From: Gammaproteobacteria bacterium
Lineage (GTDB): Bacteria; Pseudomonadota; Gammaproteobacteria; Xanthomonadales; Wenzhouxiangellaceae
Reading direction: 5' to 3'
Assembly (NCBI GenBank): GCA_009908385.1
Contig: JAAAPE010000093.1
Coordinates: 1 to 37,886, forward strand
DNA: 37,886 nt
Made by a program: the position numbers and the translations under genes. Shown here one piece after another: positions 28,067 to 30,900 of this stretch. Positions within the stretch are counted from its first letter, which is position 1. Each line of letters begins with the position of its first letter. The notes beneath the pieces were generated by a model that worked only from the letters and a program-made list of their open reading frames with translations, did no database searches and had not been told where the DNA came from.

Positions 28067-28627
28067 ATGCCGACCGAGATCGATCATCCCCTGACCGAGT
28101 TGTTGCAACGATCGGCCGCCGGCGACGAAACGGCCCGGGAAGCGCTGTGGGACCAGCTCCACGACCGTCTCAGGGGGCTCGCCCGGCATCGCCTGGCCCG
28201 GGAGGGCGCCGCGGACTGCGATCCCACCGAACTGGTCCACGAAGCCTTCATCAAGCTCGAAGGGCTGCGCGTGGCACCGCGCGACCGGCTGCATTTCCTC
28301 GGCCTGGCCGCGCGCGCCATGCGCCAGGTACTGGTCGACCAGGCCCGGCGCCGGCGGCGCGACAAGCGCGGCGGCGGCACCCCGGACCTGACCCTGCCCT
28401 CCCAGTGGATCGACGCCGATCAGCGCGGACCGATCGACACGCTCGATCTCGAACGCGCGCTCGACGCCCTGTTCCGACTCGACGAACGCAAGGCGCGCGC
28501 GGTAGAGCTGAGCTACTTCGGCGGACTCACCGACGATGAGGTCGCCGAGGTGCTCGGCGTATCGGTCGCCACGGTCAAGCGCGACCTGCGCACCGCCCGG
28601 GCCTGGCTGGCCACGGAACTGCCGTGA
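28067..28627 (+). CDS. ECF-type RNA polymerase sigma factor of the kinase-linked (TIGR02999/ECF43-like) type
   Basis: 186 residues. Sigma region 2 (about 15-100) and region 4 (about 120-180, HTH 'LTDDEVAEVLGVSVATVKRDLRTARAWL'). Region 2.2 reads D52-P-T-E-L-V-H-E where most ECF sigmas have an Asp-Ala-Glu-Asp-type acidic motif; T54 sits in the gap. In the Vibrio EcfP/PknT pair a sigma of this kind is activated by Thr phosphorylation in region 2.2. No anti-sigma gene is present. It overlaps the kinase gene by 4 bases (GTGA). The ATG at 28067 is preferred over upstream in-frame starts because of the SD and fold. Confidence 0.92.
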   Translation: MPTEIDHPLTELLQRSAAGDETAREALWDQLHDRLRGLARHRLAREGAADCDPTELVHEAFIKLEGLRVAPRDRLHFLGLAARAMRQVLVDQARRRRRDKRGGGTPDLTLPSQWIDADQRGPIDTLDLERALDALFRLDERKARAVELSYFGGLTDDEVAEVLGVSVATVKRDLRTARAWLATELP

Positions 28628-30900
28628 AGGCCGACGAGTTCCTCGAGCTGGAGCGGCAGTTCAGCGAGGCCGTGGCACTCGATGAACGCGGCCGCGCCGA
28701 GCGGATCGCCCGCCTCAAGGCCAGCTCGCCCGAGCTGGGAGAGCGCCTCGAGGCGATGCTCGCCGCCGATGCCGGGGCGCAGGATCCGCTACTGCGCGCG
28801 ATGGCCGACGACGCGCCGGCGCCGCTGCCGGAAACCATCGGCCCCTTCGAGGTGCTCCAGCGCATCGGCGAGGGCGGCATGGGTGTGGTGTACCTGTGCC
28901 GGCGCCAGGGCGACGACTTCGAGCAGCTGCTCGCGGTCAAGCGCCTCAACGCGGCGGCCGACTCGGCGGCGGCCCGGCAGCGCCTGCGCGTCGAGCGCCG
29001 TCTGCTGGCGTCCCTGCGTCATCCCAACATCGCCCAGCTGGTCGACGGCGGCGAGGAAGCCGACGGCACCCCCTGGGTGGCCATGGAATTCATCGACGGC
29101 GAGCCCATTCTCGACAACGCGCGGCGCCGGCGTCTCGACCGGCGCGCGCGGGTCAGGCTGTTCCTCGCCCTGTGCAGCGCCGCCCACTTCGCCCACCAGC
29201 ACCTGGTCGTCCACCGGGACATCAAGCCGGCCAACGTCCTCATCGACCGGGCCGGCCACCTCAAGCTGCTCGATTTCGGCATCGCCAAGCTGCTCGACGA
29301 GCAGCGCGAGGAAAACCAGCGCACGGTCCTGACCGTCGCCGGGGCGATGACCCCGCACTACGCCAGCCCGGAACAGATCCGCGGCGAGACGGTCACGCCG
29401 CTGAGCGACGTGTATTCGATGGGCGTGCTGCTTTATGAACTGATCGCCGGGCGCCGGCCCTACGAGATCCATACGCGGCGGCCGACCGAGATCGAGCGCA
29501 TCGTCTGCCGGGACGAGCCGCGCCGGCCGCTCCCCGGCCGGCGCGGGCCCGCCGGCGATCTCAACTGCATCGTGGCCAAGGCCATGCACAAGGCGCCCGA
29601 CCGGCGCTACCAGTCGGCGGCACAGCTGGCCGAGGACCTCGAGCGCTGGCTCGACGGCCGGGCGGTGCTCGCCCGGCCGGATTCGGCCGCCTACCGCTTC
29701 CGCACTTTCGTCCGACGGCATCCTTTCGGCGTAGCCGCCTCCGGGCTGCTGGCCCTGCTGCTGGTGGGATTCGGGGCAGCGATGGGCTGGCAGGCGAGCG
29801 AACTGGCCGAACAGCGCGACCGCGCCGAGCGCGAGGCCCGCATCGCCGGCGAAACCGCCGAGTTCCTGATCGAGCTGTTCGCCGTCTCCGACCCGCGGGA
29901 GAACAACCCGGCCGACGTGCGCGCCCGCGACCTCCTGGAGCGGGCCGCCGAACGCCTGCCGGCCGGACTCGAAAGCGATCCGCTGATGCGCGCGCAGTTG
30001 CTGCACGTCATCGGCCTGGCCTTCGCCAACCTCGGCGAGGACGCGCGCGGCACCGAACTGCTGGCCGGCGCGCTGGCGCTTCGCCGACAGCACGCCGGAC
30101 CCGACAGCGCGCTCACCGCCGATTCGCTCAACCGCCTCGGCAACGTCCACCGCCGATTCGGACGCCTGCGCGAGGCCGAACCGATGCTCGTCGGCGCCCT
30201 CGAGTGGCGGCGCGCCAACGGCCCGGTCGACCACGACCTGGCCGACTCCTGGAACAACGTCGGGCTGCTGCGCAACGAACTGGGCTGGTACGAAGAAGCG
30301 GAAGCGGCGCTGCGCGAGGCGATTGCACTGCACCGGCGCGTCGGCGGCGACGACACCACGCATGCGGCCGCGCCCCTGCACAACCTGGCCCTGTCGCTGC
30401 GCGACCAGGGTCGGCTCGGGGAAGCGCGCGACGCCGCGCTCGACTCGCTCGCCATCAAGCGACCCAACGACTGGAGCCTGTCATCGCTGGCCAACACCCT
30501 CGGCGTGCTGGCCGGCATCGAGCGGCGACGCGGCGATCTCGATGCCGCCCTGGCCGCCTCGCGCGAGAGCCTGGCTTTGCGCGAACAGGTCTTCGGCCGG
30601 GACAACGTGATGATCGCCTCGGGGCTGACCACGCACGCGTCCGTGCTGCACGCGCGCGGCCGGGACGCCGAGGCGGAGGCCCTGTACCTGGAAGCCCTGG
30701 GCCTGCACGAGCGAAGCGACAGTTCGGGTAGCCTTCGGGCCGCCGACCTGCGCCTGGGCTACGCCCGCTTCCTCGCGGCGGTCGGTCGGGGGGCGGAAGC
30801 CGAATCCCACCTGGCCGAGGCGCGGCGGATCGCGCAGCGCGAGCTGCCGGCCGACAGTCCCGAGCTGGCACGCTATCGCTCGCTGGACAATGCGCGCTGA
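28624..30900 (+). CDS. Transmembrane Ser/Thr protein kinase with TPR sensor domain
   Basis: 758 residues, GTG start overlapping the sigma stop. A short N-terminal helical region (1-70) precedes the Hanks-type kinase (75-345): glycine loop GEGGMGVVY (82-90), ATP-anchoring Lys106, HRDIKPAN (197-204) with catalytic Asp199, DFG (217-219) and 'YASPE'. One membrane helix (about 367-389) follows, then a periplasmic C-terminus (about 400-758) of TPR repeats, e.g. 'EAEPMLVGALEWRR' and 'EAEAALREAIALHRR'. The kinase is thus cytoplasmic and the TPR array is a likely sensor or protein-binding face. Partner is the sigma factor, the expected phosphorylation target. Confidence 0.95.
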   Translation: MKADEFLELERQFSEAVALDERGRAERIARLKASSPELGERLEAMLAADAGAQDPLLRAMADDAPAPLPETIGPFEVLQRIGEGGMGVVYLCRRQGDDFEQLLAVKRLNAAADSAAARQRLRVERRLLASLRHPNIAQLVDGGEEADGTPWVAMEFIDGEPILDNARRRRLDRRARVRLFLALCSAAHFAHQHLVVHRDIKPANVLIDRAGHLKLLDFGIAKLLDEQREENQRTVLTVAGAMTPHYASPEQIRGETVTPLSDVYSMGVLLYELIAGRRPYEIHTRRPTEIERIVCRDEPRRPLPGRRGPAGDLNCIVAKAMHKAPDRRYQSAAQLAEDLERWLDGRAVLARPDSAAYRFRTFVRRHPFGVAASGLLALLLVGFGAAMGWQASELAEQRDRAEREARIAGETAEFLIELFAVSDPRENNPADVRARDLLERAAERLPAGLESDPLMRAQLLHVIGLAFANLGEDARGTELLAGALALRRQHAGPDSALTADSLNRLGNVHRRFGRLREAEPMLVGALEWRRANGPVDHDLADSWNNVGLLRNELGWYEEAEAALREAIALHRRVGGDDTTHAAAPLHNLALSLRDQGRLGEARDAALDSLAIKRPNDWSLSSLANTLGVLAGIERRRGDLDAALAASRESLALREQVFGRDNVMIASGLTTHASVLHARGRDAEAEALYLEALGLHERSDSSGSLRAADLRLGYARFLAAVGRGAEAESHLAEARRIAQRELPADSPELARYRSLDNAR

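Follow-up and report, generated by a model that had tools for sequence, protein, structure and literature searches.

The sigma factor locus was analysed within a 37,886-nucleotide stretch of DNA (the window), which is contig C113 of a 2.94 Mb draft genome (G000). The forward strand encodes an ECF sigma factor of 186 residues at 28067..28627 (ATG at 28067, stop at 28627). The protein matches the TIGR02999 profile with 185.3 bits against a curated cut-off of 126.15 and the PF07638 profile with 153.9 bits. The end of the sigma gene and the start of a kinase gene share the four bases GTGA, which confirms the 4-base overlap reported in a sequence-only reading of this DNA. The kinase gene (28624..30900, forward strand, GTG start) encodes a 758-residue transmembrane Ser/Thr kinase with C-terminal TPRs (PF00069, TPR_12/TPR_10). 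The same reading saw no anti-sigma gene nearby, and no anti-sigma family, hence no adjacent anti-sigma gene of the sort found with canonical anti-sigma-controlled ECFs, was detected among the window proteins scanned against Pfam. A gene on the opposite strand (24068..27988) diverges from the sigma gene and encodes a large secreted protein of 1306 residues, a probable target of the sigma factor, with Pfam NHL and Big_9 matches and a Sec-type signal peptide. Elsewhere in the window are ordinary genes for MreC/MreB (2153-4195) and for an AcrB-type efflux pump with its HlyD partner and TetR regulator (4485-8739), and a tRNA gene lies at 10705-10778 (Rfam RF00005, 72.6 bits).

The kinase begins with an N-terminal extension of 74 residues followed by the kinase domain at about residues 75-346 (28846..29661, forward strand), which was placed by profile and structure matches. 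PF00069 aligns with residues 75-328 at 149.8 bits. The motifs GEGGMG (82), AVK with its Lys (106), HRDIKPAN (197) and DFG (217) are in place, and the full set of catalytic residues noted before (K/D/N/D) is present. The kinase matches the PknS kinase domain structure (PDB 9EED) over residues 7-344, a range that includes the N-terminal extension. An Arg-rich stretch precedes the predicted membrane helix FGVAASGLLALLLVGFGAAMGWQ (about residues 368-390; 29725..29793, forward strand) and sets its predicted orientation. The TPR region (29920..30768, forward strand, approximate bounds; PF13424/PF13374, NF040586) is accordingly predicted to be periplasmic, in line with the outside-facing TPR domain described earlier, and a sensor function for this domain is plausible.

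Orthologues of the window sigma locus (n = 12) were compared with a wider set of relatives (n = 105), a small sample that comes mostly from one order and consists of sequences that share ancestry. The window member is well above the family cut-off among the TIGR02999 (Sig-70_X6)/PF07638 sigma factors of Lysobacterales, yet it forms a separate clade with its orthologues (SH-aLRT 99%) that is marked by the divergent propeller gene and an intergenic element. A kinase gene adjoins nearly all of the TIGR02999/PF07638 relatives examined. Genome G000 encodes seven TIGR02999 sigma factors, and a kinase is close to each of them, not always in the same orientation. The other six map to contigs C61, C13, C144, C130, C135 and C55, and two of these six have the motifs DTTG/DTTS. 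A related-locus search that used the kinase as query returned only two close loci, both of which are also in the genome collection.

Two single-contig genomes have the kinase gene apart from the sigma gene, at 11.5 kb (G015) and 9.9 kb (G036) downstream on the same strand. Loss of the kinase in these genomes, with DPTE/DATE sigma factors escaping kinase control, was considered and rejected because a genome-wide search found the orthologous kinases. The separated kinases show 64-65% identity, and the intervening genes differ. A kinase with intact catalytic residues is retained in each orthologous locus that could be assessed, a count that excludes the G032 locus because it stops at a contig edge. 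That the two genes stayed close to each other after the operon broke up supports the idea that they work together.

The gene divergent from the sigma gene codes for a large secreted NHL protein in 11 of the 12 orthologous loci; no other sigma-kinase locus in the comparison has such a gene at this place. An FG-GAP repeat protein takes the divergent place in the twelfth locus (G003). NHL and FG-GAP repeats form β-propellers. Several of these NHL/FG-GAP proteins have a short Phe-rich C-terminus (IFSDRF, FFSGFE, IFADGFE), and IFSDRF is the sequence near the C-terminus of the window protein. The secreted β-propeller protein is the best candidate target of the sigma factor, and it could also be the thing that is sensed. 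The sigma-kinase system likely provides phosphorylation-gated control of a surface protein.

A conserved element, TATGCG-N10-TAGAATCGGATCA (28022..28050, forward strand), lies in the 78-base gap that separates the two divergent genes, at a distance of 16 bases from the sigma ATG. The element core, A(T/G/A)(A/G)ATCG(A/G)(A/G)TCA, is found in all 12 orthologues at 40-57 bases before sigma codon 9 and usually has GCG 11 bases ahead. Shuffled upstream sequences contained the core in a mean of 0.014 of 12 cases (maximum 1), a figure that shows only the absence of a composition effect because the pattern was derived from the same 12 sequences. The element scores 37.3 at the locus and ≤12.4 elsewhere in the window, where it is the sole strong site. 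Its location with respect to the sigma ATG is compatible with the -10 and start region of a promoter. No clear sigma-70 -35 was found at the element, so its assignment as the site of this sigma factor remains putative. A genome-wide search for a regulon gave exact matches almost only at this locus and scattered one-mismatch matches; the reversed-pattern control is of unusual composition, and no convincing set of other genes with the element emerged, so no regulon is proposed.

Two genomes have additional copies of parts of this neighbourhood. A second copy of the intergenic element, joined to a remnant of the 5′ end of the sigma gene, is located 7 kb away in G003 (L180:8151-8176), where the duplicated element faces a second FG-GAP repeat protein gene. 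A second NHL/Big_9 protein gene is located directly before the separated kinase in G036 (L120:5261-10912), with a hybrid histidine kinase-AraC regulator upstream of it.

Region 2.2 of the sigma factor contains the motif D52-P53-T54-E55 (28220..28231, forward strand). A solved-structure search with the sigma factor returned only distant ECFs in which region 2.2 was not reliably aligned, and canonical ECFs of the same genome were used for the alignment instead. DPTE aligns over D-T-E-D (L008) and E-A-L-D (L012) of these ordinary ECFs. D52 and E55 occupy both canonical acidic positions, and only the variable middle residue differs, being Thr in the window protein. The published region 2.2 consensus is DxxDxxQE (PMC13147305), and the window protein has DPTE-LVHE (DxxExxHE). 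E55 is invariant in the 12 orthologues. The sequence-only reading held that the acidic motif was lacking and that a Thr phosphate restores the missing charge. The alignment contradicts the former claim, and the DPTE quoted in its support already contains two acids; the latter is unsupported, and a charge-restoring switch loses its ground, because both canonical positions are acidic. With both acids present, the unphosphorylated sigma factor could already be active. Among the 105 relatives, 23 have an acid at position 52, 29 at position 55 and 7 at both, and 60 have no acid at any of the four motif residues. On a tree calculated after removal of the motif columns, acidity changes 12 times at each of the two positions. 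With many relatives having no motif acid and few having both, the window protein is an acid-rich member of its family rather than a charge-less one.

The T54 codon (28226-28228, forward strand) specifies a residue that is Thr in 12/12 orthologues and in 99/105 of the wider relatives. Conservation in homologues was set beforehand as a test of T54, and the residue passed it. Thr-54 changes only 3 times on the tree that omits the motif columns, and its counterparts in the alignment are the phospho-Thr residues of EcfK (T51) and EcfP. The losses among the 105 relatives are to Arg-Asp in three, Asp in two and Ala in one. The Arg-Asp proteins (L082, L243, L039) are a small lineage in which QSRD/LTRD replaces Thr-Ala/Glu and the kinase is retained, and the Asp proteins (L247 and L248, from G009 and G010) have ETDA, which places a natural phosphomimic at the phospho-Thr position. 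The kinases adjoining the sigma factors without Thr-54 have an intact catalytic Lys, Asp, Asn and Asp. Their retention beside Asp-54 and Arg-54 sigma factors makes it improbable that T54 alone is targeted by the kinases of the family. T10, S149, S166 and T169 are also invariant in the orthologues, so invariance by itself does not mark a phosphosite. T54 is conserved, as would suit a phosphosite, but is probably not the sole kinase target. The earlier identification of T54 as the switch holds with respect to its conservation and its alignment with known phospho-Thr residues, but its missing-charge basis is gone and it overlooked T109.

T109 (codon 28391..28393, forward strand) lies in the σ2-σ4 linker and is the proposed equivalent of EcfK T106. 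EcfK is phosphorylated by PknS at T51 and at linker residues T104, T106, S108 and S110 (PMC13147305). The EcfK variant T51A retains function, the double variant T51A/T106A does not, and T106 is a second switch (PMC13147305). All 11 orthologues that cover position 109 have Thr there; in the wider set of 105, 63 sequences have Thr in this column and another 26 have Ser, Asp or Glu. The 55 residues that separate T54 from T109 equal the T51-T106 spacing in EcfK, and the correspondence was placed by this spacing and a profile alignment. We regard a switch that uses both sites as more credible than one that uses only T54.

The EcfK/PknS system of Xanthomonas citri (ECF43; PMC13147305) resembles the window pair in having an ECF sigma factor adjoining a membrane kinase, and PknS shares the layout of N-terminal extension, kinase domain, one membrane helix and periplasmic TPRs. 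Both sigma factors have a region 2.2 Thr followed by Glu, but position 52 is acidic in the window protein (DPTE), whereas EcfK (QATE) has one acid only. The neighbours of EcfK/PknS are type VI secretion genes rather than a secreted β-propeller gene, and EcfK phosphorylation is experimental (PMC13147305), whereas the window pair is known from sequence alone. EcfP of Vibrio parahaemolyticus, also ECF43, is phosphorylated by PknT (PMC8999054). It is like the window protein a kinase-linked ECF without an anti-sigma factor and has Thr at the same position (PMC8999054). The EcfP motif is STTA and has no acids, and the missing-charge model rests on this acid-free motif, unlike the two-acid motif of the window protein. 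ECF43 features found in the window are a neighbouring gene for a Hanks-type kinase (intact and overlapping the sigma gene by 4 bases), T54 as the Thr at the EcfK T51/EcfP phosphosite, which is present in 88% of ECF43 members (PMC13147305), and T109, which spacing and profile assign to the EcfK T106 position, where Ser, Thr, Asp or Glu occurs. The DxxD positions of ECF43 are typically uncharged, whereas D52 and E55 are acidic; the uncharged state is typical but not universal, with a fourth-position acid in 15.8% of members (PMC13147305). As judged by these single features, the window system is very probably an ECF43 relative. The wiring of a sigma factor to a kinase is already known from Vibrio and Xanthomonas. 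New here are the conserved divergent propeller gene, the intergenic element and a kinase that persists 9.9-11.5 kb away.

The gene anatomy, the conserved residues, the intact kinase and the conserved neighbourhood with its element are observed directly; that the sigma factor is phosphorylated, at which sites and with what effect, in response to which signal and with which gene as target, is inferred. The interpretation that we favor, with moderate confidence, is a phosphorylation-gated sigma factor with its receptor kinase, belonging with EcfK/PknS and EcfP/PknT. The TPR domain would receive a periplasmic signal and activate the cytoplasmic kinase, whose substrates would be T54 in region 2.2 and T109 in the linker of the sigma factor. 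Phosphorylation would lead to better RNA polymerase binding, and the phosphorylated sigma factor would switch on its own operon and the divergent secreted β-propeller gene. D52 and E55 already provide the usual acids, so a T54 phosphate would probably tune binding and not create it, and the stronger of the two switches may be T109.

The sequence-only reading proposed a sigma factor that is inert without region 2.2 charge and is restored by a T54 phosphate alone, exactly as in EcfP. The conservation of T54 and its alignment with the EcfP/EcfK phospho-Thr agree with this proposal, but it is highly doubtful with acids at both canonical positions, E55 being present in every orthologue, and with single-acid EcfK still working as T51A (PMC13147305). 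The DxxE acid pattern is like that of ordinary ECFs and would suit a constitutively competent sigma factor that is set by its expression level, the kinase only modulating it or serving another substrate. The distance of about 10-11.5 kb between kinase and sigma gene in two D52 genomes also fits this explanation, but a kinase with intact catalytic residues is kept in every assessable orthologous locus, and we consider constitutive competence quite improbable. T54 could instead be kept mainly for structure at the start of the region 2.2 helix, with the kinase acting chiefly through T109 or another site. In favor of this reading, the sequence D-P-T-E is similar to a helix capping box, T54 persists regardless of the charge on either side, kinases beside Asp-54 or Arg-54 sigma factors are catalytically intact, and T109 is invariant in the orthologues. 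The equivalent Thr is experimentally phosphorylated in both EcfK and EcfP (PMC13147305, PMC8999054), and the replacement of Thr by Asp in one lineage is what would be expected if charge matters there; a mainly structural role for T54 is unlikely. Returning to phosphorylation gating, a tentative and somewhat speculative scenario is that the clade regained the canonical region 2.2 acids, with kinase control operating mainly via T109 and dedicated to the giant divergent β-propeller protein.

The window sigma factor, as a member already carrying region 2.2 acids, offers a natural test of sigma phosphorylation. If such an acid-bearing member still needs its kinase, the missing-charge model would not be a general rule and the linker site would merit equal attention. 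The large secreted propeller protein and the short element provide a conserved candidate target for a group of regulators with mostly unknown targets.
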